64,000 nt of DNA from assembly GCF_023507705.1 (NCBI RefSeq), contig NZ_JALBGD010000009.1, positions 62,001-126,000 of the forward strand, given 5' to 3'. The position numbers and the translations under genes were made by a program. The stretch is from Stappia sp. WLB 29 (GTDB lineage: Bacteria > Pseudomonadota > Alphaproteobacteria > Rhizobiales > Stappiaceae). The notes beneath the pieces are model-generated. The model was not told the DNA's origin. It saw only the letters and a program-made list of their open reading frames with translations, and ran no database searches. Below are positions 13,852 through 36,718 of this stretch, one piece after another. Positions within the stretch are counted from its first letter, which is position 1, and each line of letters begins with the position of its first letter.

Positions 13852-13927
13852 TCGAGTCACTCCAACATTTTCGTGCGCTACCGATACCGCAGCCGCGCGG
13901 CATTTTCGGTCAAACTTTGCAAGTTCG

Positions 13928-13942
13928 TGCAATTTTATTGCA
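13928..13942. promoter_or_regulatory. Lrp-type palindrome between divergent genes
   Basis: TGCAAT-TTT-ATTGCA, a perfect 6+3+6 palindrome in the intergenic region between the Gate-domain membrane protein (-) and the Lrp/AsnC gene (+). It matches the general form of alphaproteobacterial Lrp/AsnC sites (TTGCAAT...ATTGCAA). Confidence 0.6.
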
Positions 13943-13967
13943 TAGTAGTGCGAACCCCGGAGGCGCC

Positions 13968-14426
13968 ATGGACCGCATCGACAGGAAGCTGCTGAACCTG
14001 CTGCAGGCGGACGCTGCGCGCACCAATGCCGACCTTGCCGAGGAGGTCGGCCTGTCGCCGTCGAGCTGCCTGCGCCGCATCCGCCGGCTGAAGGCGACCG
14101 GCGTCATCGACCGCACGGTCGCCATCCTCAACCCGGCGCGCGCCGGCAAGGGCCTGAAGGCCGTCGTGACGGTGGAGCTGGAGCGCCACGGCGAGCAGCA
14201 GACCCGCCGCTTCCTGGCGCTGGTGGAGAACGAACCGGCGGTGGTGCAGGCCTACAGCGTCAGCGGCGAGACCGATGTGGTCCTGATGCTGCGGCTGTCG
14301 GGCATGGAGGAATTCGACGGGTTGTGCGAACGTCTGTTCCGCAACGAGACCAACGTGGCGCGCTTCTACACGATGTTCGTGATCCGCACCGGCAAGGAAA
14401 CCACAGCGATCCGGCTGGCGCCGTGA
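13968..14426 (+). CDS. Lrp/AsnC-family transcriptional regulator
   Basis: A 152-residue feast/famine regulator: N-terminal AsnC HTH ([13 protein letters not shown], then [13 protein letters not shown]) and a C-terminal RAM ligand-binding domain with [12 protein letters not shown]. The ATG at 13968 has GGAGG five bases upstream. It probably senses an amino acid and controls the divergent membrane gene and itself through the palindrome 26 bases upstream. Confidence 0.9.
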
Positions 14427-15055: not shown

Positions 15056-15466
15056 TCAGGCCGCCTCGAAGCGGATGTCCTGCGCGCCTTCCCACAGGAC
15101 CTTGCGGCCGAGCTCGGGCAGCTTGTCGAGGTTCGAGGTCAGCGTGACGAAGTGGTTGCCGGCGAGCTGGCCCATCTTCGAGGAGAAGTCGACGCCGCCA
15201 TAGGCGAGCAGGATCTCCGTCTCGCTGATGCCGCCGGGATAGAGCAGGATGTGGCCCGGCGCCGGGTGGCTGGTGTGGTTCTCGTAGCCAACGCCGAAGG
15301 ACAGGTCGCCGAGCGGGATCCACACGCCCTCGCCCGACCAGCGCACATGCACGATCTGCCCGGCAAAGGGCATGCGCGCCAGGAACGCCTTGCAGGTCTC
15401 CGGCGCCTTCTCGGTCTCCAGCACCGCATCGAAAGTGAAGGGGCCGGCGGTGATCTTGATCTTCAT
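15056..15466 (-). CDS. DUF3830 (cyclophilin-like fold) protein
   Basis: A 136-residue cytoplasmic protein matching DUF3830: it opens K-I-K-I-T-A-G-P-F-T-F-D-A-V-L-E-T-E-K-A-P, and contains H-V-R-W-S-G-E-G-V-W-I-P-L-G and H-P-A-P-G-H-I-L-L-Y-P-G. Structures of the family show a cyclophilin-like barrel without an agreed enzymatic role. It is the last gene of the six-gene minus-strand operon, 21 bases after the dihydropyrimidinase-family gene, so a role in binding or processing a cyclic amide-type substrate is plausible but inferred. Confidence 0.8.
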   Translation of the reverse strand: MKIKITAGPFTFDAVLETEKAPETCKAFLARMPFAGQIVHVRWSGEGVWIPLGDLSFGVGYENHTSHPAPGHILLYPGGISETEILLAYGGVDFSSKMGQLAGNHFVTLTSNLDKLPELGRKVLWEGAQDIRFEAA

Positions 15467-15487
15467 GTCGTTTCCTCCTTTGGGATT

Positions 15488-16897
15488 TCAGAGCGGTGCG
15501 GCACTGCGGGTGCGGGCCGACCGGTAGGTGCCGTCGCCCTTGGCGCCGACGAGCGTGTTGTCGCGGACCATCACCCGGCCGCCGAGGATGACGGTGGTCG
15601 GCCAACCGGTGATCTCCAGCCCCTCGTAGGGCGAGTAGTCGGCCCCGTCATGCAGGTCCGCATGGCGGATGGTCCGCTTTTCCGTGGGGTCCCAGATCGC
15701 AAGGTCGGCATGCGAGCCGATGGCGATGGTGCCCTTTTCCGGATAGAGGCCGTAGGTGCGGGCATGCGCGGTGGCGGCCAGCGAGACGAAGCGCGGCAGG
15801 TCGATCCGCCCCTTCATCACCCCTTCGGAGAAGAGGATCGGCAGGCGCGTCTCGACGCCGGGAATGCCGTTGGGAATATGCCGGAAGCTGGTGAGGCCCT
15901 TCGGATTGCGCTTGCCGCGTTCGTCGTCGTAGCGGAACGGGCAGTGGTCGGAGGAGAACAGGTCGAAGACGCCCGTCTCGATGCCGCGCCAGCACTCGGC
16001 CTGGGCCGCCTTGTCGCGCGGCGGCGGCGAGCAGACGAACTTCGCCCCCTCCCAATCCATGCCGTCGAGATCCTCGGCCGTGAGCACCAGGTATTGCGGG
16101 CAGGTCTCGCCGACCACCTTGAGCCCGCGCGCACGGGCCCGCGCGATCTCCTCCATCGCCTCGCCGTTGGAGACATGGACGATGACGATGGGCACATCGG
16201 CGATCTCGGCGAGCGATAGCGCCCGGTGCGTCGCCTCGCGCTCCACCGCCACGGGACGGGTGGAGGCATGGGCGCGCGGGGCGACGTCGCCGGCCGCCTC
16301 GTGCCTGGCGATGAGAAAGCGGATCGCGTCCTCGTTCTCGCAATGGACCATGACGGTGGCGCCCGTCGAGCGGGCAACGTCCAGCGTCTTGAGGATCTCC
16401 GCATCGCTGAGCCGCAGGTCCTCGTAGGTCATGAAGACCTTGAACGAGGAATACCCGTCGGCGGCGAGCGCCGGGAGTTCCTGGCCGAGCAGCGAATCCG
16501 TCGGGTCGGAGACGATCAGGTGGAAGCTGACGTCGGTGTAGCAGTTGCCCTCGGCCAGCTTGTGATAGGCGGTCAGCGCCTCGCGCATCGGCCGCCCCTT
16601 CTCCTGCAGGCAGAAGGGCATGATGGTGGTGTTGCCGCCGAACAGGGCCGAGAGCGTGCCGCTCTCGAAATCGTCGGCCATGACGATGCCCTCGCCCGAG
16701 GGCTGCGAGACGTGGACATGGCTGTCGATGCCGCCGGGCAGCACATATTTGCCGCTCGCGTCGATCACCTCGCACTCGCCCGTCAGCGCCTCGCCGATCT
16801 GGGCAATGCGCCCGTTGCGGATGCCGATATCGGCACGGAACACGTCCGAGGCGGTGGCGATGGTGCCGCCGCGCACGATCAGGTCGAAACGGTCCAT
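15488..16897 (-). CDS. Dihydropyrimidinase/D-hydantoinase family amidohydrolase
   Basis: A 469-residue metal-dependent amidohydrolase that opens cyclic ureides or imides. The binuclear centre is complete: H60 and H62 (D-S-H-V-H), the carboxylated K153 (S-S-F-K-V-F), H185 (M-V-H-C-E), H241 (V-H-V-S) and D317 (S-S-D-H-C-P-F). The length is typical. The natural substrate could be a dihydropyrimidine, a hydantoin or another cyclic amide. It lies 10 bases after the ABC ATPase gene and 21 before DUF3830, in an operon otherwise devoted to uptake and oxidation of an amino-acid-like compound. Confidence 0.88.
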   Translation of the reverse strand: MDRFDLIVRGGTIATASDVFRADIGIRNGRIAQIGEALTGECEVIDASGKYVLPGGIDSHVHVSQPSGEGIVMADDFESGTLSALFGGNTTIMPFCLQEKGRPMREALTAYHKLAEGNCYTDVSFHLIVSDPTDSLLGQELPALAADGYSSFKVFMTYEDLRLSDAEILKTLDVARSTGATVMVHCENEDAIRFLIARHEAAGDVAPRAHASTRPVAVEREATHRALSLAEIADVPIVIVHVSNGEAMEEIARARARGLKVVGETCPQYLVLTAEDLDGMDWEGAKFVCSPPPRDKAAQAECWRGIETGVFDLFSSDHCPFRYDDERGKRNPKGLTSFRHIPNGIPGVETRLPILFSEGVMKGRIDLPRFVSLAATAHARTYGLYPEKGTIAIGSHADLAIWDPTEKRTIRHADLHDGADYSPYEGLEITGWPTTVILGGRVMVRDNTLVGAKGDGTYRSARTRSAAPL

Positions 16898-16907
16898 GGT
16901 CGGCCCC

Positions 16908-17642
16908 TCAGTGATGAAGGATCTTGCCGAGGAAGGCCTCGGTGCGCGGGTTGTGGCGGGCGGTGAAGAACTCCTCGGTCGGCCGGTCCTCGACGATCTC
17001 GCCCTGGTCGATGAAGATCATGCGGGTGGCGACGCGGCGGGCAAAGCCCATCTCGTGGGTGACCACCATCATCGTCATGCCCTCGCGCGCCAGGGAGGTC
17101 ATCACGTCCAGCACCTCGGAGATCATCTCCGGGTCGAGCGCCGAGGTCGGCTCGTCGAACAGCATCGCCTTGGGGTTCATGGCGAGCGCCCTGGCGATCG
17201 CCACGCGCTGCTGCTGGCCGCCGGAGAGCTGGCCCGGATACTTGTGCGCGTGTCCGGTCATGCCGACGCGCTCCAGGAGTTCCATCGTCCTGGTGCGGGC
17301 GACCTGCTGGTTGCGGTTCAGCACGATGCGCTGCGCCAGCATGATGTTGTTCTCGATGGTGAGATGCGGGAACAGCTCGAAATTCTGGAACACCATGCCG
17401 ACCAGCGAGCGCAGCTCGGGAAGGTTGGTCTGCGGGTCGTTGACCTCGACCCCGTCGATCCGGATCGAGCCTTCCTGGATCGGCTCCAGCGCATTGACGC
17501 ACTTGATGAGGGTGGACTTGCCCGAACCGGACGGGCCGCAGACGACGACGACCTCGCCCTTGGCGACGCTGGTCGAGCAGTTCTTCAGGACGGGGAACTT
17601 GCCGTAGTATTTCGTCACTCCGGTGATCTCGATCATGGTCAC
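16908..17642 (-). CDS. Polar amino-acid-type ABC transporter ATPase
   Basis: A 244-residue GlnQ/HisP-type ATPase. Walker A is G-P-S-G-S-G-K-S-T (about 37-45), the signature L-S-G-G-Q-Q-Q-R follows, and Walker B is [13 protein letters not shown]; the switch His is in V-V-T-H-E-M-G-F-A. It partners the permease at 21478-22170 and the binding protein at 25115-25990. The start overlaps the stop of the fused flavoenzyme by four bases (ATGA). No second permease gene is in the operon, so the permease probably acts as a homodimer. Confidence 0.93.
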
Positions 17643-20548
17643 CCTCCTTGGAACCGGGAAATGGAAAAGGCCGAAAGGTCGCGGCCGGGATCGCGGCCGC
17701 GCACCAGCGCCGCCGTCAGCTGCCCGACCAGGGGGCCGAGCGTGTAGCCGTTGGACGTCACGGCGTTGAAGAAGCCGGGCATCGCCGGGTGCTGCCCGAG
17801 GATCGGCGCACCGTCGATGTTGATGTTCATCGCCGCCCAGCTGCGGATCACATGCAGCTTGCGCAGGCCCGGCACCACGTGCTGGGCGACCCAGAGATTG
17901 CCTTCAAGGCTGGAGAACAGCGGGCGCGGATGGCTGTGCACGGGGTCGAGGCCCGCCGTCCAGCCGCCGCCGATCAGGAAGTTGCCGTTGGCCGCCTGCT
18001 TCAAGGTCAGGTGCCGGTCGGCATGGGCGACGAGATGGGAAACGGCGGGCGCGGCGGCTTCGGTCACCACCATCTGCAGCGGCGCGCCGAAGACGGGAAC
18101 GTCGAGCCCGAGCATGGCACCGATCCGCGCGGCGAAGGCGCCGGCGGCATTGACGAGACGCCCGGCGCGCAAGGGTCCGCGCGAGGTGTCCACGACGAAG
18201 CCCGCCCCCTCGCGCCGGATCGCCAGAACCTCGGTGCGGTCGAACACGCGGGCGCCGGCCGCGACAGCGGCCTCCAGCACATGGCGGGTGGCGACCAGCG
18301 GGTTGATCTTGCCCTCCTGCGGGCAATAGGCCGCGCCGATCATCGCCGGCGACAGGCCCGGCTCGAGCCGGGCGAGATCCTCGCGGCCGATCACCTGGCA
18401 GTCGATGCCGTGGCTGCGCTCGACGCGGGTCTTTTCGTCCAGGAAGCGCAGATGCGCCTCGGTCTCCGCGACCATCAGCCCGCCGGTGATCTTCATCTCG
18501 AAGTCGCGGCCGAGCCGCACCTCGAGCTCCCGCCACAGGTCGATGGCATCGCGCTGCAGCGGCAGGGTGCGGGCAGCGGCTCCGCCGTCGCCCTCCGCCT
18601 TGGCGCCATGGTCGAAGGACAGAAGCTGGGCGTGCAGGCTGCCGGCATTGCCGCCCGAGGCGAGCCCGCCGGGGAAGCCGCGCTCGACCACCGCCACCTC
18701 CTCCCCCGCCTCGGCGAGGAAGAGCGCGGTCGCAAGGCCCGCAATACCGGCGCCGATGACGAGCGTCGCGACCTCGCGGATCGGCAGCGGCTCCGGATTG
18801 TCCAGCGGCGGGCGCTCGGGCAGCAAGGCCCGCTTGTGGCCGCCCCATTCGGGCTTCTCGACGGCAAGCGCTGCCAGCGGCACCGGGCGCAGCGGCATTT
18901 GCGGAGCGAGCAAGCCGCTCGTCTCGTCGGCCGGACGCCCCGCAAGCGCAGTCAGCGTGCGCCCGCAATAGCGGCCCTGGCAGCGGCCCATTCCGGCGCG
19001 TGTCAGGCGCTTCAAGGTGGCGATGTCCGGCGGACCGCCGGCAGCCGTCTCGCGCAGCACACCGAGCGCGACGCTCTCGCAGCGGCAGGACAGCGTGCCG
19101 ACCGCATCGGCCTGCGCGTCCTCCGCCGGGCGGAACAGCTGCCACAGCGCCTGCTGGAAGCGGCGGGCACGATTGAGCCGGCGCTGCGCGCCCGGATCGG
19201 GCTCCGCGGCAAACCCGAGCTTGCGCGCGATGGCAAGGCCGGCCAGACGCCCGGCGGCCATGGCGACATGAGCCCCGCCGAAGCGCGCGGCCTCGCCGAC
19301 GATATGGACGTGCGGGTCGGAGCTTTCGCCGGCCTCGTCGCACCGGGCGACCAGCGTGCCGTCGCCGGCAACCACATGGGCAAGGCCGAGCAGGCGCGAC
19401 AGCTCGTTGGACGGGGCGAAGTCGCCGCCGACCAGCACGGTATCGACCTCGAGAACCTCCTCGCCGGACGGACCTTCGAGGCGCACGGCCTGCGCAGAGG
19501 TCTCGCCCAGCACCTCGACGGCGCGGGTCTGCCAGCGGATGGAAACGCCGGCGCGCTGCAGGGCGGCGATCTCGCCCATGCCCTTCAGCGCCAGCGCCGG
19601 ATCGGCCTGCAGGATGGTGATGGCATCGCGCGGGCTCGACCAGGGCGCGCGGGCCCGGTCGGCCAGGCACACGACCTTGCCGCCATGGCGCAGGATCTCG
19701 CCGGCGACCTGGATATTGAGCGGGCCGTTGCCGGTGATGGCGAAGCGGCGTCCGGGAAGGCTCGCATAGCTGCGCAGGAGGGTCTGCGCCGCGCCCGTCG
19801 TCATGACGCCCGGCAGCGTCCAGCCGGGGAGCGCGGCCGGCCGCTCGAACGCACCGGTGGCGATGACCAGCACGCGCGGGTGCAGATAGAAGGCGCCGTC
19901 CGGGCCGAGGCAGCCGAGGACGGGGGCGCCGTCCGGCTGGCGCTCGGCGCCCCAGACGGTGACGCCGGAGAGGAGTTCCACGCCGCAGGCGCGCGCCTCG
20001 GCGACGAGGCCGGCACCGTCCTGCGCCTGCCGGTCGCGGGCGAGCGCATGGCGCGCCTCCCGCGTGACGGGCTGCTTGTAGAACTGGCCGCCGGCAGCGG
20101 GCCGCTCGTCGACAAGGGTGACCTTGGCGCCGGCACGGGCGGCGGCAATGGCGGCGGAAAGTCCGCCCGGCCCCGCGCCGACGACCAGCACGTCGACGGC
20201 ACGAGTGGGCAGTTCCGCCGGCACGGGTGCAAGATCGGCGAGCGCCGGCGAGAGAATGTCGGGCCGCGGAGCCTGCCGCTCGACCCGCATGCCGTCCTGC
20301 ACCTTGGTCATGCAGGCGCGCTGGCTGGTGCGCCCGTCTATGGTGACCAGACAGTCGTGGCACACGCCCATGCCGCAGAAGAGCCCGCGCGGACGGCCCG
20401 CCGCATCGCGCGAGAAGGACGCCCGCCCGCCGGCCGCAAGGGCTGCGGCGACGGACGTGCCCGGATCGACACGGTGCACCTCGCCATCCAGATGGACGGT
20501 CACGAGGTCTGGGGCCGGCCTGGCGTCGTGCGGGGCCGCAGCGGACAT
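17639..20548 (-). CDS. Fused 2Fe-2S/FAD/BFD/DAO multidomain amine or imino-acid dehydrogenase
   Basis: A 969-residue chain joining modules usually encoded as separate subunits of opine oxidase, hydroxyproline dehydrogenase or HcnABC-type enzymes. Residues 15-95 are a 2Fe-2S domain with C58, C63, C66 and C79. Residues about 118-450 form an FAD/NAD(P)-type disulfide-reductase-like domain (V-V-G-A-G-P-G-G-L at 122-130). Residues about 488-535 are a BFD-like Fe-S domain (C488, C490, C523, C528). From residue 594 a DAO-type FAD domain begins with V-I-G-A-G-I-A-G-L. It probably oxidises a secondary amine or D-amino acid and passes electrons through the Fe-S centres. The four-base overlap with the ATPase gene and 16-base gap after the DapA gene show operon membership. 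HCN production is not implied. Confidence 0.88.
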
Positions 20549-20564
20549 GGGCGTCTGCCTCCGG

Positions 20565-21455
20565 TCAGGTCTCGAAGCGCAGGCCGAACCGCTCGACCAG
20601 CGCCTTCATCTGCGCATCCTGTGCGGGCGGTAGCGGCAGGCGCGGCGGCAGTGGTGCGCCGGTCGCAAAGCCCATATGCGAGAGCAGCGACTTGGTGCCC
20701 GCGACATAGGCCTGGCCGCCGACCGCCTGGATGATCGGCAACCACTCCAGATAGAGCGCGCGGGCCGCATCGTAATCCTTGTCGTCGGCAGCAAGCGTGA
20801 AGATGCGCGACATCGGCCCCGGCGCGACGTTGGAGGCGACCGCCACCCAGCCCTGCGCGCCCATCACGAAGGATTCGAACCCCAGGATGCCGCCGAACGG
20901 CACCATGCGGTCGCCGGCAAGGCGGACGATGTCGCGAATGCGCGTCACCTCGAGGGTGGATTCCTTGACGTAGTCGCAGCCGTCGATCTCGGCGATGCGG
21001 GCCAGCAGCTCCGGCTTCATGTCGACATTCGACGTCGCCGGGTTGTTGTAGACCATGATCGGGATCGAGATCGCCGCCGCGATGGTGCGGTAGTGCTCGA
21101 CCAGCTCGTCGTCGGTGGGGGTGGAGTAGAACGGCGGGATGATCATCACGCCGTCCGCGCCCATCTCCTGCGCCTTGCGGGCGAGCCGGACGCATTCGCG
21201 TGTGTCCTCCGCGCCGGTGCCGATCAGCACCGGCACCCGGCCGGCGGCGGTGTCGATCACCGTGCGCGCCACCGCATCCTTGTCCTCCTCGGACAGCGAC
21301 AGGAACTCGCCGGTGGAGCCGAGCGGGATGAGGCCGTGCACGCCCTCGCGGATCTGCCAGTCGGTGAAGGCCGCGAGGGCTGAAAGGTCGGGCGTTCCGT
21401 TGCCGTCGACCGGCGTGATCATCACGGTGAAGACGCCGCGAAATTTCGTGGACAT
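20565..21455 (-). CDS. DapA-family (dihydrodipicolinate synthase-like) aldolase/dehydratase
   Basis: A 296-residue (beta/alpha)8 Schiff-base enzyme. The phosphate/carboxylate loop G-S-T-G-E is at 46-50, the catalytic Tyr in V-Y-N-N-P at 136, and the Schiff-base Lys in C-D-Y-V-K-E-S at 164. The family covers DapA, N-acetylneuraminate lyase, KDG aldolase and hydroxyproline-pathway dehydratases. A housekeeping DapA is unlikely given its place in a catabolic operon between the permease and the fused dehydrogenase; it more likely processes the keto or imino product. Confidence 0.87.
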   Translation of the reverse strand: MSTKFRGVFTVMITPVDGNGTPDLSALAAFTDWQIREGVHGLIPLGSTGEFLSLSEEDKDAVARTVIDTAAGRVPVLIGTGAEDTRECVRLARKAQEMGADGVMIIPPFYSTPTDDELVEHYRTIAAAISIPIMVYNNPATSNVDMKPELLARIAEIDGCDYVKESTLEVTRIRDIVRLAGDRMVPFGGILGFESFVMGAQGWVAVASNVAPGPMSRIFTLAADDKDYDAARALYLEWLPIIQAVGGQAYVAGTKSLLSHMGFATGAPLPPRLPLPPAQDAQMKALVERFGLRFET

Positions 21456-21477
21456 ATGAAGGTACCCTTATGGAGAT

Positions 21478-22170
21478 TCAGCGCTTTTCCGTGAGACCCA
21501 CGGCGGCGGTCGACTGGCCGAACCGGCGTTCGATGCGTCGCTGGACGAAGTCCCAGAGCGTCGTGAGGATGAGGTAGTAGAGGGCCGCGACCGCGAAGAG
21601 CTCCAGCACCATGAACTTCTCCTGGATGAGCACCTGCGTGCGGCGCAGCAGCTCTTCCATGGAGATGACCGAGGTGACGGAAGTGGTCTTCAGCAGGCCG
21701 TTCACCGAGTTGCCGAGCGGCGGGATGATCACCTTGAAGGCCTGCGGCATGATGATGTAGCGCATGATCTGGCGCTCGGTCATGCCGAGCGCCCGGGCGG
21801 CCCGCGACTGGCCTTCCGGCACCGCCTCGATGCCCGCACGGATGATCTCGGCGAGATAGGCCGCCTCGTTGAGCGCAAGGCCGATCAAGGCCGCCTCCAC
21901 CACCGAGAAGCGGATGCCGAGCTGCGGCAGCGCCGTGTAGATGACGATGAGCTGCACCAGGAGCGGCGTGCCGCGGAACAACCAGATGTAGAACCAGGCG
22001 ACGGCGCGCAGCACCTGCAGCTTCGACCGCCGCATCAGGGCGATGAGGAAGCCGAGCAACAGGCCGCACAAAAGCGAGACGCAGGTCAGCCAGATCGTCG
22101 TGAACACGCCTTCGAGAATATAGGCGTTGGTGAGATAGCTGAAGAAACCTGACCAGTTCCAGACTGACAT
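21478..22170 (-). CDS. Polar amino-acid-type ABC transporter permease
   Basis: A 230-residue permease of the HisM/GlnP class. It has about five helices and the EAA loop (A-A-R-A-L-G-M-T-E-R-Q-I-M-R-Y-I-I-M-P-Q-A). Also seen is the family signature L-F-R-G-T-P-L-L-V-Q-L near residue 68. The ATG at 22170 was chosen since the first helix follows; the upstream frame lacks membrane character. It is the first gene of the six-gene operon, downstream of the GTATAC element at 22375-22394. Confidence 0.92.
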   Translation of the reverse strand: MSVWNWSGFFSYLTNAYILEGVFTTIWLTCVSLLCGLLLGFLIALMRRSKLQVLRAVAWFYIWLFRGTPLLVQLIVIYTALPQLGIRFSVVEAALIGLALNEAAYLAEIIRAGIEAVPEGQSRAARALGMTERQIMRYIIMPQAFKVIIPPLGNSVNGLLKTTSVTSVISMEELLRRTQVLIQEKFMVLELFAVAALYYLILTTLWDFVQRRIERRFGQSTAAVGLTEKR

Positions 22171-22514
22171 GGCGGGCCTTTCTATCGGGTGCGGCAGGAG
22201 GCGGGCGGCACCGCCTCCCCGAGGGGAGCAGGCCGGGGACCGGCTGCAGGCTTTCGGGGATGGAACGGGTCGAACGACATGCAAGCGCCAGCGACAGGAT
22301 CGCGCCCTTCCAAGGGGGAAGAGACAGCGGGGTGAGATGGGGCCACGGGTTGGTTTGCTTTTCCCGCATTCATTTGGTATACCGATTTAATACACAGCAA
22401 CAGGACATGCGCAAGTCCCTTTGTCGGACCTGTGCACGCCTCTCCCGCAAGGCCTCCCCAGGCCGTTTCCGAAAGGCACAGATGGCGCCCGTCTCGTCCC
22501 GCCCGGCGGCGATC
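22171..22514. other. 344-bp intergenic control region
   Basis: No gene is supported here. The AT-rich part at about 22355-22400 carries the TGGTATACCG...TAATACA element and is the likely promoter of the permease operon on the minus strand. The GntR gene ends at 22515, so the promoter serves only the operon. Confidence 0.6.
22375..22394. promoter_or_regulatory. GntR-type operator of the catabolic operon
   Basis: TGGTATACCG-ATT-TAATACA, containing the perfect 8-base palindrome GGTATACC. Seventeen of 20 positions, including everything but a three-base spacer, are identical to the element at 25048-25067. The core resembles operators of FadR/FCD-type GntR proteins, two of which are encoded immediately next door. 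It lies about 205 bases upstream of the permease start. Confidence 0.65.
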
Positions 22515-23159
22515 TCAGTAAGTGGAAAGAACCCGCTGGCGCACCTTTTCCAAGTGCTGCGCCATGCTCTGGCGCGCGGCCTCGGCATCGCGCGCGGCAA
22601 GCGCTGCGAGGATCTCGCGGTGGTCCTCGAGGCCCGGCTTGCGCTGTGCCAGCCGCCGCTGCCGCTCGAAGATCGTCGTGTAGCGGCGCATCTGGACGAT
22701 GGTCTCGGCCATGAACGGATTGCCGCTCGCCTCGCCCAGCCCCTGGTGCAGCGCATCGTCGAAGCGCCAGATCACCGCCGGATCGGGATCGGGATCGTCC
22801 TCGATGGATTGCAGCATGGCGGCGAGCTCGGCGAGCTTGCCCTCAGTGATCTCGGGACAGGCGAGCGCGGCCGCCGTCGGCTCGACCAAGAGGCGCATGG
22901 TCAGGCTGTTGAGATAGTCCTTCAGGGTGATAACGCGCACGGTGAGCATGCTCTTGCCGTTGCGCACCAAAAGCCCCTGCCCTTCCAACCGGCCGAGCGC
23001 GTCGCGCATCGGCGAGCGCGACACGCCGAGGCGGGCGGCAAGACGCCGCTCCTGAATGACGACTCCTCCGGCAAGCTGTGCCGACAAGATCTCCTCCAGC
23101 AAGGCGCGATAGGTCTCGTCCGCGAGACTCGTCTCCGTGCCGGTTTCCTGTTCGGCCAT
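22515..23159 (-). CDS. GntR-family regulator with FCD domain
   Basis: A 214-residue regulator: GntR winged HTH at about 10-75 (Q-E-R-R-L-A-A-R-L-G-V-S-R-S-P-M-R-D-A-L-G-R-L-E) and an FCD effector domain with the metal-ligand type residues D-D-A-L-H-Q and E-D-H-R-E-I. The start M-A-E-Q-E-T was chosen as the first ATG close to the HTH. It is divergent from a second GntR gene, 122 bases away, and sits just upstream of the permease operon on the same strand. Confidence 0.88.
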   Translation of the reverse strand: MAEQETGTETSLADETYRALLEEILSAQLAGGVVIQERRLAARLGVSRSPMRDALGRLEGQGLLVRNGKSMLTVRVITLKDYLNSLTMRLLVEPTAAALACPEITEGKLAELAAMLQSIEDDPDPDPAVIWRFDDALHQGLGEASGNPFMAETIVQMRRYTTIFERQRRLAQRKPGLEDHREILAALAARDAEAARQSMAQHLEKVRQRVLSTY

Positions 23160-23281
23160 CTGCCGTCTCCACTTCACCATTTGACGATCAGGACTGCTAT
23201 GCCGCATGCCTTTTGCCAAGGGCAAGCATTTCGCATGAGGTCGGACCCGCGCAATACCACGCCTTCGGAGGGGCAAGCCAA

Positions 23282-23959
23282 GTGAGCGTTACGGAGGAAA
23301 ACGGCGGCGCCGCGTCCGCCCGCGGAAGCCACAGCCTCGCGGCGCTGGCCTACAACGCCGTGTCGGACATGATTCGCCACCGCAAGCTCGGTGGGGGCCA
23401 TGTCATCGTCGAGGCGAGGCTCGCCGAGACGCTGGGCGTCTCTCGTACGCCCTTGCGCGAAGCCCTGCAGCGGCTGGAAGGCGAAGGCCTCGTCCACAAG
23501 GGCGACGGGCGCAACTACGTGGTGCGGCACGTCGATATCGGCGAGTACATCCAGAGCCTGAAGCTGCGCCTGCTGATCGAGCCGGAGGCGGCGGTGCAGG
23601 CGATGGGGAGCATTCCCAGCCGCAAGCTGATAGAGGTTCGCCGCGAGATCGACGACCTGATGGGCACGACCAGCTATCACACCGATGCGCACTGGTTCTC
23701 CGACGACCACCTGCACGGGCTGATCATCGACCATTGCGGCAACGACGTGATGGCCCAGGTGCTGCGCAACCTGCGCGCAACAACGAGGCTGTTCGAGATC
23801 GGCCGGCTGAAGGATCGCCTGACACCGGATTCGACCGAGCACCTGATGATCATCGACGCCTTGCAGCGGCAGGATGCCGACGCCGTGCGCCGGACGGTGG
23901 CGAGCCACATCGTCAGCCTGATCGACTTCGCCCGCAAGCACCTCAACATGACGGACTGA
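23282..23959 (+). CDS. GntR-family regulator with FCD domain (GTG start)
   Basis: A 225-residue regulator: HTH at about 18-80 (E-A-R-L-A-E-T-L-G-V-S-R-T-P-L-R-E-A-L-Q-R-L-E-G-E-G-L) and an FCD domain with D-D-H-L-H and S-T-E-H-L-M. The GTG at 23282 was chosen because GGAGGGG ends eight bases before it; no in-frame ATG is closer than the HTH. It diverges from the neighbouring GntR gene and is convergent with the phosphotriesterase-family gene. The two regulators are only distantly alike, so they may sense different metabolites. Confidence 0.86.
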   Translation: MSVTEENGGAASARGSHSLAALAYNAVSDMIRHRKLGGGHVIVEARLAETLGVSRTPLREALQRLEGEGLVHKGDGRNYVVRHVDIGEYIQSLKLRLLIEPEAAVQAMGSIPSRKLIEVRREIDDLMGTTSYHTDAHWFSDDHLHGLIIDHCGNDVMAQVLRNLRATTRLFEIGRLKDRLTPDSTEHLMIIDALQRQDADAVRRTVASHIVSLIDFARKHLNMTD

Positions 23960-23966
23960 GGCGCGC

Positions 23967-24995
23967 TCAGACGAGCGTCAGCAACCGCGCCGGCGTCCGC
24001 TTCAGCAGGAGGTCGATCTCGGATTGCGCGAAACCCCGGTCGCGCATCAGGGGGATGACGTTGCGCAGCATGTGCGCATAGCCATGGCCGCCATGGCACT
24101 GCAGGCGCGAGCGGGTGCAGATGTCGTGCGACAGGACGACATTGCCGCCGAGCCCTTCCTCGAACAGCCGCCGCACCGCATGGATGCGCATGTAGTCGGT
24201 CGGAAGGTCGGCGACCGCCATCCAGTATTGCGACTGCTCGATACCGAAGAAATCGTACTCGACGACGCAGCCGCGCCGCGCCAGCGCGACCACCTGTTCG
24301 ACGCTGTCATAGGTGCGGTCCATGTGGTCGATGATGACGCGGGAAAGGTCCGCGCCCGCGGCCTGAAGGACGTCGAGGATCTCGTGCGGGGCGTCGGGAT
24401 GGCGGCCGGGATGCACCGTGATTGCCGCGCCGGTGCGCTGCTGGGCGATGGCCCCGGCGGCAAGCGAGCGCCGCTCGAATGGGGTCAGCGGCCAGGAACA
24501 ACCGATCTCGCCGATGATGCCGCAGCGGATATCGGTGCCCCAGGCGCCTTCCTCGACCTGCGCCGTGACGATATCGGCCAGCGCCTCGAGCGGCAGCGCC
24601 AGCACCGCCTCGTCCTGATAGCCTTCGGTATAGAAGCCGGCGCCGAGCACAACATGAACGCCGGTCTCGGCCGAGATCGCGGCGAGCCCCTTCGGGTCCG
24701 GGCAAAGCCCGCCGGTGGTCATCTCGACGATGGTGCCGCCGCCCGCCTGCGCGAAGCGGCGGGTCTCGGATGTCGCGATGGCAAGGTCCTGGAGGCGGTG
24801 GTTGCCGTGATAGTCGTTCGGCCGGTAGGTGACGTCGAAGACGTTCTCCAGCGTGATCTCCACCTCGGGCAGGCCGCAGCCGCGCCGCGCCGGTAGGGTC
24901 AGGTCGCACAACAGGTGCTCGTGCATCAACGCGTAGCCGAGCGCCTCCGGCGCGACCGGGCCGCACACCGTCTGAACCGTCCCCGCCCGCACCAT
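23967..24995 (-). CDS. Phosphotriesterase-family metal hydrolase
   Basis: A 342-residue TIM-barrel hydrolase. The binuclear site is complete: H25 and H27 (M-H-E-H), a bridging acidic residue E163 (G-E-I-G-C-S-W) in place of the carboxylated Lys of classical phosphotriesterases, H195 (T-V-H-P-G-R-H), H224 (D-H-M-D-R) and D291 (S-H-D-I-C). The Glu bridge places it with the Php/lactonase-like branch, which hydrolyses lactones or carboxylic esters. It is divergent from the binding-protein gene across the second GTATAC element and therefore probably co-regulated. Confidence 0.85.
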   Translation of the reverse strand: MVRAGTVQTVCGPVAPEALGYALMHEHLLCDLTLPARRGCGLPEVEITLENVFDVTYRPNDYHGNHRLQDLAIATSETRRFAQAGGGTIVEMTTGGLCPDPKGLAAISAETGVHVVLGAGFYTEGYQDEAVLALPLEALADIVTAQVEEGAWGTDIRCGIIGEIGCSWPLTPFERRSLAAGAIAQQRTGAAITVHPGRHPDAPHEILDVLQAAGADLSRVIIDHMDRTYDSVEQVVALARRGCVVEYDFFGIEQSQYWMAVADLPTDYMRIHAVRRLFEEGLGGNVVLSHDICTRSRLQCHGGHGYAHMLRNVIPLMRDRGFAQSEIDLLLKRTPARLLTLV

Positions 24996-25047
24996 GCAGA
25001 CCTCCCTGATTGTGGTTGATTTTGACTGCTTGCAGACCGCATATAAA

Positions 25048-25067
25048 TGGTATACCGTCCTAATACA
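25048..25067. promoter_or_regulatory. Second copy of the GTATAC operator
   Basis: TGGTATACCG-TCC-TAATACA, matching the element at 22375-22394 in 17 of 20 positions. It lies 53 bases upstream of the phosphotriesterase-family gene (-) and 48 bases upstream of the binding-protein gene (+), so a single site could control both. Confidence 0.65.
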
Positions 25068-25114
25068 ATATAAAAACAGGCCTCATCAAACCAACCAGAG
25101 CGGAAGATAACCTC

Positions 25115-25990
25115 ATGAAAAACAACGGATTCGATCGCATCCTCGGCGCAGGTCTCTCTCGCCGCAGCGTGCTCCTGGGTGCCGCGGCCACCGGCGCCGG
25201 TCTCGCCCTCGGCGGCCGGGCGGCCTTTGCGCAGCCGGCGCTCGCCCCGCCGCACATCATCAAGCCGGGCACGCTCGTGATGAGCACCAACCCGACCCTG
25301 CCCCCGCTCCAGTTCGTCGACGACAAGGGCGAAGTGCAGGGCATGCGCATCGAACTCGGCAAGGAGATCGCCTCCAAGCTCGGCCTGACGCCGGAATACA
25401 TCAAGGTCGAGTTCGCGGCGATGGTGCCGGGGCTTGCCGCCGGCCGCTGGGACATGATCAACACCGGCATCTTCTGGACCGAAGAGCGTTCCAAGCTGAT
25501 GTACATGGTGCCCTACGAGCGCGCCGCCGTGAGTTTCCTGGTTCCCAAGGGCAACCCGAAGAACATCACCAAGTGGGAAGAGCTGGCCGGCCTGTCCGTC
25601 GGCGTCGAGCTCGGCGGCATCGAGGAGCGCCGCACCCGCGAAGTCGACGACATGCTCAAGAATGCCGGTCTCGAAGGCATCACCGTGCGCGTGTTCAACA
25701 ACTTCTCGGAAGCCTTCCAGGCCCTGCGCGCCGGCCAGGTCGACGCTGCGACCTCGATCGATGCGACCGCGAAGTTCCTCGAAGACCGCGACGACTTCAC
25801 CCGCGCCATCGCCGGCCTGTTCCCGCAGACCGCAACGTTCGCCTTCGCCGACAAGACGCTGGCAGAGGCGGTCGTGGGCGTCCTCAACGACCTGCGCGCC
25901 AGCGGTTTCTACGACGAGCTGTTCACACGCTACGGCGTGCTGACCATCGAGGAAGAGAAGTTCGCGATCAGCGGCCCCGGACCGGCCTGA
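25115..25990 (+). CDS. Tat-exported amino-acid-type ABC substrate-binding protein
   Basis: A 291-residue periplasmic binding protein of the SBP_bac_3 family. The N-terminus has a twin-arginine motif S-R-R-S-V-L-L-G (residues 15-22), a hydrophobic stretch and a likely cleavage after A-F-A (about 39). The mature part shows N-P-T-L-P-P-L-Q-F-V-D and M-I-N-T-G-I-F-W-T-E-E-R, typical of polar amino-acid binders. No other transporter gene is near, so it most likely serves the permease and ATPase of the opposite operon. Confidence 0.9.
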   Translation: MKNNGFDRILGAGLSRRSVLLGAAATGAGLALGGRAAFAQPALAPPHIIKPGTLVMSTNPTLPPLQFVDDKGEVQGMRIELGKEIASKLGLTPEYIKVEFAAMVPGLAAGRWDMINTGIFWTEERSKLMYMVPYERAAVSFLVPKGNPKNITKWEELAGLSVGVELGGIEERRTREVDDMLKNAGLEGITVRVFNNFSEAFQALRAGQVDAATSIDATAKFLEDRDDFTRAIAGLFPQTATFAFADKTLAEAVVGVLNDLRASGFYDELFTRYGVLTIEEEKFAISGPGPA

Positions 25991-26129
25991 GGTCAGGTCT
26001 GACGGCCGGGCTCGACTGCCCGGCCCTGCTCTCCCGGCCCTGCCAGGCGCCCCGGCGCCCGGCAGGGCCTGCGGCGGACGGCGCCCCATCGCCGCCGCCG
26101 CACTCATGCCTTCTCATTTGGATATCGCC

Positions 26130-26945
26130 ATGAGCACCCGCCCCCGGGACAGGCTCGGGGTCATCGGCTTCGGGCCCATCGGCAGACGCCTTGCCGCCCG
26201 CTTCCGCGATGCGGCCGAGGGACCGCAGCTTGCCGCGCTTCTGGTGCGCGAGCGCCAGGCGAGCGATGCGAGCGCCCTTGCCCCCAACGCCGCGATCTGC
26301 ACCGACATCGACAGCTTCCTGAAAGCCCGGCCGACCGTCGCGGTGGAATGCGCCTCCGCCGCAACGCTGGTCGAGGCAGCCCCTGCCCTGCTCGCCTCCG
26401 GCTGCGATATCCTGCCGCTGTCGCTCGGCGCCTTTGCCGACCGCGATGCGGAAATCCGGCTGAAGCAGGCCGCTGCCAAGGGCCCGGGGCGCATCGAGGT
26501 GCCGGCCGGAGCGCTGGGCTCCATCGGCTTCCTGACTGCCGCCCGCGAAAACGGCCTTGCCCGTGTCGGGATGCGCATCGGCTATCCGCAGGAGCGTTGG
26601 CAGGCGATGGGCGCGGACCGCTTCATCCGCCTTGAGGGCTTGCGCGAGCCGGCAGTCTTCCTGGAGGCGAGCGCCCGCGAGATCGCCGCGCAGTTTCCCG
26701 GACATCTCAATGTCACCATCGGCGTCGCGCTGGCCGGTCTCGGCCTCGACGAGACTCGGGTGACGCTGGTCGCAGATCCGACGGTCACCCAGGCCTGGTT
26801 CGAGGTGGAGGCCCACTCCGCCTCCGGCCCCGTGCATCTTCGCGTCGACGGGCGGGACGCGCCCGTCCATCACGATCCGCTCGACTACACGACGTTCAGC
26901 GTCATGCGCCTCTTGCAGCGCCGCGCGGCGGCCATTGCCACGTGA
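26130..26945 (+). CDS. Aspartate dehydrogenase-like NAD(P) oxidoreductase
   Basis: A 271-residue protein. The N-terminal Rossmann fold shows V-I-G-F-G-P-I-G-R-R-L (about 11-21); the C-terminal DUF108 domain has E-V-P-A-G-A-L-G-S-I and F-P-G-H-L-N-V-T-I-G-V-A-L-A-G-L. These are the signatures of the NadX/aspartate dehydrogenase family, which interconverts L-aspartate and iminoaspartate/oxaloacetate. The start at 26130 (M-S-T-R-P-R) is preferred over 26106. Its stop overlaps the start of the M20-like gene by four bases, so both follow the binding-protein gene as a unit. Confidence 0.82.
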   Translation: MSTRPRDRLGVIGFGPIGRRLAARFRDAAEGPQLAALLVRERQASDASALAPNAAICTDIDSFLKARPTVAVECASAATLVEAAPALLASGCDILPLSLGAFADRDAEIRLKQAAAKGPGRIEVPAGALGSIGFLTAARENGLARVGMRIGYPQERWQAMGADRFIRLEGLREPAVFLEASAREIAAQFPGHLNVTIGVALAGLGLDETRVTLVADPTVTQAWFEVEAHSASGPVHLRVDGRDAPVHHDPLDYTTFSVMRLLQRRAAAIAT

Positions 26946-28294
26946 CCGCCGACAGAAAGACCGACAGGGAGACCACCGTGACATCGATCCTGCAGGACAT
27001 CGCCGGCGCTTCGGCGCGCGAGCACGCACGCATCCTCGACGGGCTGCGGACCTATGTCCGCGCCGGCAAGGACGGCGAGGCGGCGGTCCAGACCCTGTTC
27101 GCCGAAACCGCCGAGGCGCTCGGCTGCACCGTCGAGGCCAGCTCCTACAATCCGGCGGATGTGCGCATGATCGAGGAGTTCGCCGGCGAGACGGCCATCG
27201 ATCCGCAGGCGCGCACCAGCATCATCGCACGCTGCAAGGGGACGGGAAACGGCCGCAGCCTGATCCTCTTCGCCCATCCCGACGGCGAGCCCGTCACCGG
27301 CACCGACCGCTGGCGGCACGACCCGTTCGCCGGCGAGGTCGACAACGGCCGGCTTTACGGCTGGGGCGTTGCCGACGATCTCTCCGGCGTCGTCGCCGGA
27401 TTGCAGGCGCTGGAGCTGCTCGCCTTGCTCGGCCTTCGACCGGCCGGCGACGTGCTAATCGCCAGCACACCGAGCAAGCGTCATGCCCGCGGCGTCTCGC
27501 GGCTGATGCAGGAGGGGATGACGGCGGATGCCGCGCTCTACCTGCATCCGGCCGAGTCCGGCGCCGGGCTGCGCGAGATCAAGGCGCTGGCCTCAGGCCA
27601 GGTCGAGTTCCGGGTGATCGTCGAGGGCTGCCCGCCGCCGACGACCGAACCGCTGCAGACCGCCTTCGGGCACCTCGGCGTCAACGCCATCGACAAGGCC
27701 TTCGTCATCTGGGAGGCCTTGAGGCGGCTCGATGCCCGGCGCGGCGAGGCGGTGCACCATCCTGCGCTGCACGGCGAAGTCGGCCGCTCGACCAACATCA
27801 TGATGTCCTACATCTCGGCCGGCGACCCGAAGCGGCTCGCCCGCCTTGCGACACGCTGCACGCTCGGCGCAGCGCTCGCCTTCCCGCCGCCGGAAAAGCT
27901 CTCCGACGTCTGCGCGCAGATCGAGGCGGCGGTGGCGGAGGCTGCCGCGAGCGATCCCTGGCTGGCGGAAAACCCGCCGCGCATCGTCTGGGACAGCGGC
28001 ACGACAGGCGCCGAGGTACCGGGCGACCATCCGCTGCTGCTCGCGGCCCATGAGGCGATCCGCGGGGTCTGCGGCCTGGAGGCGCATGTGAACCCGATGC
28101 ATACGGGCAGCGACATCCGCAACCCGATGATCCAGAAGGGCATCCCGACCATCGGCATCGGCCCGCTCTGCGGCGATCTCAGCCAGAACGACGGCACCGA
28201 CGAATGGGTCGATGCCGACGACCATGTACGCTTCGTCGGTGCCGTCGCCGGCATCATCGCGCAGTGGTGCGGGGTCGCGAAGGCCGAAGGATAG
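26942..28294 (+). CDS. M20-family peptidase/amidohydrolase-like protein with altered active site
   Basis: A 450-residue protein with the M20 fold. The first metal motif H112-P-D114 is present, as is an Asp in G-V-A-D-D-L-S-G (145/146). Where catalytic members carry the Glu-Glu pair (S/D-x-E-E-x-G), this protein has T-P-S-K-R-H-A-R-G (176-184). The segment that normally holds the last His reads N-D-G-T-D-E-W-V-D-A. M-H-T-G-S-D (386-391) matches the dimer-domain His region. It may be a non-hydrolytic or reshaped family member. The gene is translationally coupled to the aspartate dehydrogenase-like gene. Confidence 0.75.
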   Translation: MTADRKTDRETTVTSILQDIAGASAREHARILDGLRTYVRAGKDGEAAVQTLFAETAEALGCTVEASSYNPADVRMIEEFAGETAIDPQARTSIIARCKGTGNGRSLILFAHPDGEPVTGTDRWRHDPFAGEVDNGRLYGWGVADDLSGVVAGLQALELLALLGLRPAGDVLIASTPSKRHARGVSRLMQEGMTADAALYLHPAESGAGLREIKALASGQVEFRVIVEGCPPPTTEPLQTAFGHLGVNAIDKAFVIWEALRRLDARRGEAVHHPALHGEVGRSTNIMMSYISAGDPKRLARLATRCTLGAALAFPPPEKLSDVCAQIEAAVAEAAASDPWLAENPPRIVWDSGTTGAEVPGDHPLLLAAHEAIRGVCGLEAHVNPMHTGSDIRNPMIQKGIPTIGIGPLCGDLSQNDGTDEWVDADDHVRFVGAVAGIIAQWCGVAKAEG

Positions 28295-28311: not shown

Positions 28312-30042
28312 TCAGGAAGCCTCCCTCTCCTCGCTCCCGATCTGCGGGATGAGCGTACGCTCCTCCTCGCGGGCGCCGCAGAGCAGCTCGACGGCGCGGT
28401 CGGCAGCGTCCTGGAACGGCTCCAGCACCATGTCCGCTCCGGCCGCGACCATCGCCTCGGTGTCGCTGGCGTGATGCGAGGAGACGGCGATGCGTCCGCC
28501 GAAGCCGGCGCTGCGGGCCAGTTGCAGCAGGGTCGTGCGCGGATCCTCCTGGCTGAGCCCGGTCACATGGCTCGGCACGGTCGACACCAGCCACTCGGCA
28601 TGCGCCATCGGCAGTTCGGAGATGAACTCCGGATCGGTGGCATCGCCGAACTCGGTCTCCAGGCCGAGTTCGCGCCATCGCCGCACCGCCAGCGGATTGA
28701 AGTCGACGCCGAGCACGCGGATGCCCCGGCGCTTCAGCCGCATGCCGATCGCCGTGCCGAAGCGGCCCAGGCCGAAGACGATCACCTTGTGGCCGGTATC
28801 CTCATGCGCCGCCGCCTCGCTCGGCTCGCGCGGTGTGCCCCTGCGCTCGAACACGCCGAGCAGCGGCTCGCACAGGGCATAGAGCTGGTGGGAATAGGTG
28901 ATCATGTAGGTCGAGGCCGCGATGGTGACGAGGCCGACCATCGTGACGAGGCCGAGCGCATCTTCCCGCACATGCCCGAGCGAGACGCCCATGGCGATGA
29001 AGATCAGCGAGAATTCGCTGATCTGAGCCACGGTCAAGCCGGCCAGGAACCCGGTGCGCTTGCGGTAGCCCATCGCCCCCATGATCGCCAGTACGATCAA
29101 GGGATTGCCGATCAGCACGAAGAGCGAAAAGATGATGGCGCCGGTCACATGCGCGCCCAGCAGCGACAGGTCGAGCGTCGCGCCGAGCGCGATGAAGAAG
29201 AACAGCAGCAGGAAGTCGCGCAGCGGCGCCAGCCGCGCCGCGATGGTCTCGCGATAGGGCGTGGAGGCGAGCGAGACGCCAGCCAGCAACCCGCCGACCT
29301 CCTTGCCGAGCCCCACGGCGTCGCCGATGGCGGCGAACATCGCCGCCTGGGCGATGGCGAAGATCACCAGCAGCTCCGGCGCCCGCGCCAGCCGCTCGGT
29401 CAGCGGCGTGGCGACGAAGCGGACGAAGAGGACCACCAGCGCAACCATGGCGATGCCGGAGACCAGCACCGTCAGCACCGAGCCGCCGCCATGGCCTCCC
29501 GCCCCCTCAGTGGCCGCGCCGATGCCGATGGCCGACAGCACGATCATCGCCAGCACCACGACCAGATCCTGGACGATGAGGAAGCCGAGGGCGATCTGCC
29601 CATGCAGCGAATCGATCTCGCGCTTGTCGGACAGCAGCTTCACGATGATGATCGTCGAGGAGAAGGTCAGGGCCACAGCCACATAGAGGCTCGTCGTGTG
29701 ACCGAGCCCGAGCGCAAGGCCGATCAGATAGCCGAAGAACGAGGTGAAGGCGACCTGACCGAGCCCGGTCAACAGCGACACCGCGCCGAGCGAACGGATC
29801 AGCTTCACGTCCAGCTTGATGCCGACGAGAAACAGCAGGACGGCAATGCCGAGCTCCGCGAGCAACGCGATCTGCTCATCGGCATGAACGAGATCCAGCG
29901 CCGAGGGACCAGCGATCAGGCCGACCGCGATGAAGCTGACGATCAACGGTTGCCGGAGCAGGATGCCGACCAGTCCGACGGCCGCAGCCATCACGAGCAA
30001 GACGGCAACCTCTGCAAACGGAGACTGGATCAGCATATCCAT
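28312..30042 (-). CDS. CPA2-family cation:proton antiporter with TrkA-N domain
   Basis: A 576-residue KefB/YbaL-type protein. About twelve membrane helices occupy residues 1-390, including the F-L-I-V-Q-D-L motif with the Q-D pair seen in K+-selective members. A cytoplasmic TrkA-N/RCK nucleotide-binding domain follows (V-I-V-F-G-L-G-R-F-G at about 421-430, acidic D at V-D-F-N). It probably exports K+ or Na+ in exchange for protons under NAD(H)-linked control. The start is fused to the stop of the HTH gene upstream (TGATG). Confidence 0.88.
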   Translation of the reverse strand: MDMLIQSPFAEVAVLLVMAAAVGLVGILLRQPLIVSFIAVGLIAGPSALDLVHADEQIALLAELGIAVLLFLVGIKLDVKLIRSLGAVSLLTGLGQVAFTSFFGYLIGLALGLGHTTSLYVAVALTFSSTIIIVKLLSDKREIDSLHGQIALGFLIVQDLVVVLAMIVLSAIGIGAATEGAGGHGGGSVLTVLVSGIAMVALVVLFVRFVATPLTERLARAPELLVIFAIAQAAMFAAIGDAVGLGKEVGGLLAGVSLASTPYRETIAARLAPLRDFLLLFFFIALGATLDLSLLGAHVTGAIIFSLFVLIGNPLIVLAIMGAMGYRKRTGFLAGLTVAQISEFSLIFIAMGVSLGHVREDALGLVTMVGLVTIAASTYMITYSHQLYALCEPLLGVFERRGTPREPSEAAAHEDTGHKVIVFGLGRFGTAIGMRLKRRGIRVLGVDFNPLAVRRWRELGLETEFGDATDPEFISELPMAHAEWLVSTVPSHVTGLSQEDPRTTLLQLARSAGFGGRIAVSSHHASDTEAMVAAGADMVLEPFQDAADRAVELLCGAREEERTLIPQIGSEEREAS

Positions 30043-31320: not shown

Positions 31321-31662
31321 TCAATCGCAGGCGGCGGTGACGATGATCTCGACCTTGAGGTCGGGCCGCGCGAGCTTGGCCTCGCCGCAGGCGCGGGCGG
31401 GCGCGCAGCCGGCCGGCACCCAGGCATCCCAGACCGAGTTCATCTCGGCGAAGTCGTTCATGTCCGCCAGCCAGACGATGGCCTGCAGCATCTTCTCGCG
31501 CGAGGAGCCGGCACGGTCCAGCAGCGCCTCGACCCGGGCAAGGCACTCGCGGGTCTGGTCCGCGACGGTTTCGCCCTCGCCGACCTGGCCGCACAGATAG
31601 GCAACGCCGTTGTGCTTGACGATCTTGCTCATGCGCGTCGCCACATCGATGCGTTCGATCAT
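31321..31662 (-). CDS. RidA/YjgF-family enamine/imine deaminase
   Basis: A 113-residue RidA-fold protein with [17 protein letters not shown] (about 22-38) and a closing K-V-E-I-I-V-T-A-A. Family members hydrolyse reactive enamine/imine intermediates left by amino-acid oxidases or PLP enzymes. The C-terminal region [11 protein letters not shown] lacks the usual R in the exact N-x-P-x-R context but keeps A-R-A-C. The ATG at 31662 overlaps the stop of the truncated flavoenzyme (GAATGA), showing that the two once formed an operon. Confidence 0.85.
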
Positions 31663-36130: not shown

Positions 36131-36131
36131 C

Positions 36132-36710: not shown

Positions 36711-36718
36711 TACGGGCC

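Follow-up and report, generated by a model that had tools for sequence, protein, structure and literature searches.

Which compound does Stappia sp. WLB 29 take up and degrade with the twelve genes found at positions 15056-28294 of the 64,000-nucleotide stretch of contig NZ_JALBGD010000009.1 analyzed here (the window)? With moderate confidence, we read these genes as a catabolic island under GntR control that handles a carboxylated amino-acid derivative, either N-blocked or cyclic, and in which a fixed oxidation-cleavage core is served by exchangeable front ends. The first-pass annotation of this DNA had described a catabolic-transport system of six minus-strand and three plus-strand genes, with two GntR regulators and a phosphotriesterase (PTE)-family hydrolase between them. 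Every gene that it named was confirmed at its place, and the system was found to be conserved in other genomes. The minus operon runs in the order permease, DapA-like protein, fused dehydrogenase, ATPase, hydantoinase and DUF3830, and the plus operon in the order binding protein, aspartate dehydrogenase (AspDH)-like protein and M20 protein. The genes of the ATP-binding cassette (ABC) importer are divided over both operons, the binding protein on one side and the permease and ATPase on the other. The features are as follows.

15056-15466, minus strand: DUF3830 protein of 136 aa, accessory module (PF12903, 115.7 bits, exceeding the Pfam gathering cut-off of 26)
15488-16897, minus strand: dihydropyrimidinase/D-hydantoinase, accessory module (TIGR02033, 522 bits, cut-off 393; NF009941, 712, cut-off 647; best PDB match 1nfg, a D-hydantoinase)
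16908-17642, minus strand: ABC importer ATPase of the polar amino acid type (PF00005; GlnQ-/EhuA-like, under those equivalog cut-offs)
17639-20548, minus strand: single-chain flavo-iron-sulfur dehydrogenase, a gamma-alpha-beta fusion of the opine/D-hydroxyproline dehydrogenase type, core (Fer2_4, Pyr_redox_2, BFD and DAO)
20565-21455, minus strand: DapA-family Schiff-base lyase, core (PF00701; TIGR00674, 193.8 bits, under the DapA equivalog cut-off of 206.15)
21478-22170, minus strand: ABC permease of the His/Glu/Gln/Arg/opine type (TIGR01726, 101 bits, cut-off 42)
22375-22394, no strand assigned: operator-like element upstream of the minus operon (sequence match; the layout upstream of a binding protein recurs in 9 other loci)
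22515-23159, minus strand: GntR-family regulator 1 (GntR-family models, best TIGR03338, all under cut-off)
23282-23959, plus strand: GntR/FCD regulator 2 (GntR and FCD domains)
23967-24995, minus strand: PTER-like amidohydrolase, a proposed N-acyl/N-carbamoyl amino acid hydrolase (PF02126; best PDB match 9efa)
25048-25067, no strand assigned: operator-like element in the divergent PTER/binding-protein intergenic region (sequence match)
25115-25990, plus strand: periplasmic binding protein, family 3 (PF00497)
26106-26945, plus strand: AspDH-like imine/amino acid oxidoreductase, accessory (Pfam domains Asp_DH_C and NAD_binding_3 present; best NCBIfam aspartate dehydrogenase model NF009828, 170.6 bits, under its cut-off of 177)
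26942-28294, plus strand: altered M20-family protein without the canonical catalytic Glu pair (PF01546)

The dehydrogenase and the DapA-like lyase form a constant pair

All domains of the fused dehydrogenase lie in one open reading frame (ORF) of 969 aa. For opine dehydrogenase (OpnDH) and D-hydroxyproline dehydrogenase (D-HypDH), the excerpted text of a published study gives as motifs two GxGxxG sites for flavin adenine dinucleotide (FAD), C-X4-C-X2-C-X11-12-C, R-X-W and C-X-C-X15-20-C-X4-C (PMC4575208). The window protein carries both GxGxxG sites, the first Fe-S motif and R-X-W, which were present in 59/59, 59/59 and 58/59 distinct dehydrogenase rows, respectively. Its DapA-like neighbor was examined across 63 rows, at least 95% of which kept GSTGE, YNNP and KES, which we take to be the motifs of the Thr, Tyr and Lys of the Schiff-base active site.

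Gene neighborhoods were compared in sets selected in different ways, a dehydrogenase being counted as present at more than 40% identity over more than half of its length. The DUF3830-selected set consisted of 80 other loci, the best 80 of 444 relatives, with the dehydrogenase in 36 and the DapA-like gene in 37, and all 36 dehydrogenase loci had DapA nearby. Selection by the dehydrogenase removes the bias of DUF3830-based selection. The dehydrogenase was found at E ≤ 1e-150 in 23 of 397 genomes drawn from the same order and in 3 of 385 drawn from the class, and 23 of the 24 loci taken from these draws and from the genus were over the threshold (L126 was dropped, with a weaker dehydrogenase at 39% and a weak DapA at 32%). 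These 23 loci contained DapA in 23, PTER in 19, M20 in 19 (L133, whose M20 gene lies just beyond the fetched stretch, is not among them), the binding protein in 17, AspDH in 8, DUF3830 in 6 and the hydantoinase in 2. The first-pass annotation was to be given up if its genes were not conserved together in other genomes; the dehydrogenase, DapA, PTER, M20 and importer genes do co-occur. The dehydrogenase loci have further conserved neighbors, namely a Gfo/Idh oxidoreductase in 4 loci, an amidohydrolase in 2 and a peptide-type ABC permease in 6, from which no shared clue emerged.

The dehydrogenase and DapA-like genes adjoin in 63 of 63 loci (36/36, 23/23 and 4/4 by set), usually together with an importer of the SBP3 type; at most 61 of these loci are independent, as L002/L129 and L039/L140 were counted in both sets. 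So constant a pairing argues that one enzyme makes the substrate of the other. The hydroxyproline (Hyp) pathway pairs D-HypDH with a deaminase in a similar way, and an opine/hydroxyproline-type pathway would accordingly take the dehydrogenase as an opine or D-hydroxyproline dehydrogenase, DapA as the pyrroline-carboxylate deaminase and the hydrolases as enzymes that merely accept N-acylated forms. The domain content and the FAD, first Fe-S and R-X-W motifs are indeed those of OpnDH and D-HypDH. However, neither an epimerase nor a ketoglutarate-semialdehyde dehydrogenase was assigned in the cluster by family scans, the chain is fused and its second Fe-S spacing differs, and PTER and M20 would be left unexplained, which makes this pathway rather unlikely.

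Relatives of the core genes were also seen in other settings. The C-terminal part of an ORF at 31659-32750 (minus strand) gives a match to the sarcosine oxidase A3/BFD Fe-S domain and is similar to the Fe-S region of the cluster dehydrogenase (47% over 86 residues); the ORF has no FAD domain by Pfam, stops interrupt the same frame upstream, and it looks like a remnant of an OoxA/HcnB-like gene. A different cluster, with DapA-like genes and a dehydrogenase split into halves, is found on Rhodobacterales plasmids (L089, L090 and L091); in L089 and L090 it is accompanied by gcvPA/gcvPB and an NAD kinase. A possible alternative arrangement is that of a Rhizobium locus (L022), in which a hydantoinase (50%) occurs with a distant DapA, a dehydrogenase split into pieces and another importer.

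The hydantoinase and DUF3830 behave as an exchangeable accessory module

DUF3830 and the dihydropyrimidinase had been emphasized in the first-pass annotation, and this emphasis did not hold: both are absent from most dehydrogenase-selected loci and behave as an exchangeable accessory module, not as the heart of the system. Across the 59 rows of a dehydrogenase tree (quick method, without bootstrap), the front end was PTER and/or M20 in 29, the hydantoinase in 19 and both in 5. On this tree, the hydantoinase label requires 10 changes (as a group, at least 7 of them on branches with good support), compared with 7 for the PTER/M20 label. In many Rhizobiaceae, the front end consists of the hydantoinase and DUF3830. 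Hydantoinase remnants were found in two of seven hydantoinase-less loci checked, the Rhizobium loci L015 (9607-9965) and L017 (9750-9965), which retain both ends or one end of the gene with different internal or 5' deletions and keep the rest of the cluster; the other five had no remnant. The congeneric genome G784 (L127) also lacks the hydantoinase. The changes on the tree and the deletion scars together indicate that the hydantoinase is an optional entry enzyme. As for plasmids, DUF3830 lies within ~5.3 kb of the dehydrogenase in 12 of 15 records (match of at least 77% of the query) and was not found within that distance in three Variovorax records, and DapA and the hydantoinase are both present in all four of these 15 records that were examined (L082, L083, L084 and L088).

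These data bear on whether the island is simply a hydantoin/dihydropyrimidine utilisation (hyu/pyd) operon of the usual kind, in which a D-amino-acid dehydrogenase would act on the product. Such an operon would suit a true hydantoinase that exceeds two curated cut-offs, and DUF3830 does occur elsewhere near amidohydrolases and a gene of the Asp/Glu racemase family. Yet the genes scanned at 15056-28294 included neither a carbamoylase, whether nitrilase-type or canonical M20, nor a member of the hydantoin racemase family. The hydantoinase was not found in 21 of the 23 dehydrogenase-selected stretches, and close relatives have lost it by deletion but retain the other genes. We consider a hyu/pyd operon improbable.

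The predicted structure of the DUF3830 protein has a cyclophilin-like fold, nearest to Pictet-Spenglerase domains, and a sequence profile search gave no match to McbB/KslB. DUF3830 was also considered as the missing carbamoylase, which was rejected since it persists in clusters that lost the hydantoinase and could not be found in the majority of dehydrogenase-selected loci. Among named DUF3830 loci, the closest is that of Stappia indica (99% identity, among the best 80 of 444 relatives). No papers on DUF3830, PF12903, 3KOP or IPR024532 were found in a literature search whose coverage left out most subscription journals. Elsewhere, in Paracoccus pantotrophus, two tandem DUF3830 genes (L087, 8495-9414) lie close to a Zn-dependent hydrolase and a gene annotated allE. 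Of the 37 plasmid records that match DUF3830, 12 are haloarchaeal (H45-H56), and at one haloarchaeal plasmid locus (L086) a hydantoinase/oxoprolinase pair lies nearby.

The PTE-family protein resembles PTER

The PTE-family gene had been called lactonase-like, which we had to revise. Its best PDB match is 9efa, a phosphotriesterase-related protein (E 1e-78), while the phospho-furanose lactonase model gave 39.9 bits (cut-off 630) and the OPH model 58.1 (cut-off 500), and the lactonase reading was rejected. Mouse PTER, according to excerpts of two reports, cleaves N-acetyltaurine, and N-acetyl-beta-alanine faster; its metal residues are given there as His26, His28, Glu169, His201, His230 and Asp298 and its predicted substrate contacts as Arg204, Arg233 and His300, with Tyr263 also named (PMC11374699, PMC13311154). 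These residues were mapped through 9efa, for which no organism was given, with a constant offset of 7 to the mouse numbering. The alignment shows HEH, GEIG, HPGR, HMDRT and the Tyr in the window protein, which retains the six metal ligands, Arg204, Arg233 and Tyr263; at least 95% of 32 rows conserve the positions of the metal ligands and of Arg204/Arg233. The gene would most naturally be read as encoding an N-acyl or N-carbamoyl amino acid hydrolase.

The island might then be led by the PTER homologue and serve to degrade N-acetyltaurine, N-acetyl-beta-alanine or another N-acyl beta-amino acid of this kind. The activities of the mouse enzyme and the aligned metal ligands and arginines favor this, but His300 is replaced, no taurine gene was assigned among the cluster genes, and a DAO-type dehydrogenase and DapA generally suit alpha- over beta-amino acids. 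Catabolism of this kind is very improbable for the island.

The M20 protein is a conserved subfamily with a re-made center

The alteration of the M20 protein noticed in the first-pass annotation is real and conserved. When aligned to 3pfo, the Glu run is replaced by Pro177-Ser178-Lys179, a further Glu by His202, and the final His is not kept, while His112, Asp114 and Asp146 are retained. We take the positions aligned to 3pfo to have the catalytic Glu-Glu and metal-ligand roles that they have in di-zinc hydrolases; the window protein lacks the catalytic Glu pair and the full metal-ligand set. All seven named residues (H112, D114, D146, P177, S178, K179 and H202) are identical in 31 of 31 rows, the window counted, and a model built from 7 sequences shows the M20 fold (predicted local distance difference test score 79). 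The constancy of the altered residues together with the fold indicates that the protein is a conserved subfamily with a re-made center and not a decayed gene. 5-Nitroanthranilate aminohydrolase ranked second among the structures closest to the model, which suggests that non-peptidase chemistry is possible.

The altered M20 protein follows the dehydrogenase closely. At E ≤ 1e-50 it was found in 21 of the 397 genomes from the order, all 21 with the dehydrogenase at most 8.6 kb away, and was not seen in any of the 397 without it; conversely, 21 of the 23 dehydrogenase genomes in this draw have the M20 gene. The hypergeometric probability of this co-occurrence is 6e-33, a value inflated by kinship; counted by genus, the numbers are 8 and 9 of 141.

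Both operons carry the same operator-like element

A matching 20-bp element had been reported in both control regions, and it was recovered: TGGTATACCG-N3-TAATACA occurs at 22375-22394 and 25048-25067 with 0 mismatches, and 100 shuffles of the window gave no match with ≤3 mismatches. In the whole 4.75-Mb genome, the exact element was found at the two operon promoters only, and the sole further match has 3 mismatches. Because the 25048 copy falls in the region that separates the PTE-family gene from the divergent binding-protein gene, the PTE-family gene probably belongs to the same regulon. Among the 98 loci examined, 11 contain the exact core TGGTATACC. Nine of these, from Rhizobium, Agrobacterium, Xanthobacteraceae, one Rhizobiales, Thalassospira and Aureimonas, have it upstream of the binding protein in the same layout, TGGTATACCA-N3-GAATGC; in the other two, the Stappia locus L002 and L051, it lies elsewhere.

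Two independent operons, one of the Rhizobium type and one of the PTER/M20 type, could also have come to lie side by side by chance in this genus. Each type occurs alone in other genomes, and L013 has a second binding protein beside its PTER/AspDH/M20 genes. In the window, however, one importer is split between the operons, and both promoters carry a common element that is exact nowhere else in the genome, so chance adjacency is quite improbable. The window is a composite that holds both alternative front ends under one operator.

Importer, flanks and distribution in the genus

In the binding protein, compared with a LAO reference sequence, the carboxylate Arg77 was present in 51 of 51 rows, and the ammonium Asp is invariant and displaced by one residue. 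Loss of Asp161 was considered as proof of an N-blocked ligand and rejected, as the invariant Asp was found one residue further. Ectoine uptake was rejected as well: the EhuA, EhuB, EhuC and EhuD models match, all under cut-off. Another transport locus lies at 34607-39662 (minus strand), with the tripartite tricarboxylate transporter genes TctA, TctB and TctC and a thiamine-pyrophosphate enzyme.

The cluster dehydrogenase was found in 5 of 14 genomes of the genus, the window's own counted, indicating that the island is accessory in this alphaproteobacterium. It is flanked by an Lrp/AsnC regulator (13917-14426) and a CPA2-type cation antiporter (28312-30042). The antiporter is full length in 2 of the 14 genomes besides the window's own, one of which (G782) is without the dehydrogenase, and by this distribution the right flank is variable.

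Proposed pathway

From the gene content, co-conservation, module exchange, the active-site residues kept or altered and the common operator sequence, all of which were observed, we infer which reactions take place and in what order, how they are regulated and what kind of substrate is used. A blocked or cyclic amino-acid derivative is suggested by the two kinds of front end, the importer of the amino-acid type and the core of dehydrogenase and lyase. This agrees with the class of cyclic amides, imino acids or opine-like nitrogen compounds guessed earlier, which we judged plausible. The SBP3 ABC importer would take in the compound, and a front end would free the amine: the hydantoinase by opening a cyclic ureide or amide, and the PTER-like enzyme by cleaving an N-acyl or N-carbamoyl group. 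The altered M20 protein may act on the substrate of the PTER-like enzyme or on an intermediate. The single-chain dehydrogenase, expected to contain FAD, flavin mononucleotide and two 2Fe-2S clusters as in its relatives, would oxidize the amino or secondary-amino acid to an imine or keto acid, which the DapA-like enzyme, via a Lys Schiff base, would cleave or deaminate toward central metabolites. DUF3830 and the AspDH-like protein may handle imine intermediates. The core genes point to a substrate that, once oxidized, is open to cleavage by a class I aldolase or to deamination by a relative of DapA; a hydroxyproline-like compound or a gamma-hydroxylated amino acid would fit.

Several observations weigh against a blocked or cyclic amino-acid derivative fed into a fixed core. 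The spacing in the second Fe-S motif of the dehydrogenase is 32 (56/59) or 33 (3/59), compared with the published 15-20. Neither front end is present in 6 of the 59 dehydrogenase rows, one of them (L026) on a short contig. The His300 position of the PTER-like protein is Cys, conserved across the family, and its specificity may therefore differ from that of mouse PTER. No carbamoylase was assigned among the cluster genes by Pfam/NCBIfam scans, and the exact operator core is absent from 87 of 98 loci, including several hydantoinase-type clusters (e.g., L011) and the other PTER/M20 clusters among these loci. The binding protein might also accept a ligand with a free alpha-amino group. The roles of DUF3830 and M20 are guesses, and no single compound can be named as the substrate.

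The first-pass annotation knew of no pathway matching this enzyme set, and nothing relevant on the combination was found in the literature searched, most subscription journals being outside its coverage. We tentatively propose an undescribed pathway whose fixed unit, a DapA lyase with a single-chain complex of the opine-dehydrogenase type, is fed by interchangeable N-unmasking modules; the re-made M20 and a Pictet-Spenglerase-like DUF3830 acting on imine or cyclic amine intermediates would be part of it. If this is true, D-hydantoinases and bacterial PTER homologues would gain a natural class of substrates. The cluster links the hydantoinase, the PTER homologue, DUF3830 and the re-made M20 to one dehydrogenase-lyase pair and could thereby supply a natural role for several enzymes currently without one, and their open functions can be tested jointly with few purified proteins.

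Comparison with known systems

The window hydantoinase is a full-length match to the D-hydantoinase/dihydropyrimidinase family (TIGR02033) over curated cut-offs, but unlike in known D-hydantoinase systems, it is exchangeable and its cluster is without carbamoylase or racemase. The DUF3830 model shares the fold of the bacterial Pictet-Spenglerases KslB and McbB, a likeness that implies no enzyme activity; those chains have 273-314 residues (the full-length enzyme ~300), whereas DUF3830 is a single short domain. By its model, the M20 protein is alike in overall fold to the ArgE/DapE deacylases and 5-nitroanthranilate aminohydrolase, and differs in the catalytic Glu run, the metal Glu and the last His. 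The PTER-like family agrees with mouse PTER in the metal ligands, Arg204, Arg233 and Tyr263 and differs at His300. The dehydrogenase is built of the same three parts as the opine dehydrogenase OdhABC, D-HypDH and hydrogen cyanide synthase (a 2Fe-2S gamma part, an FAD alpha part with a second Fe-S and a DAO-type FAD beta part), a likeness borne out by GxGxxG twice, C-X4-C-X2-C-X12-C and R-X-W. Unlike the three-subunit alpha4-beta4-gamma4 OpnDH and D-HypDH, it is a single chain with a second Fe-S spacing of 32-33 and a constant DapA partner.

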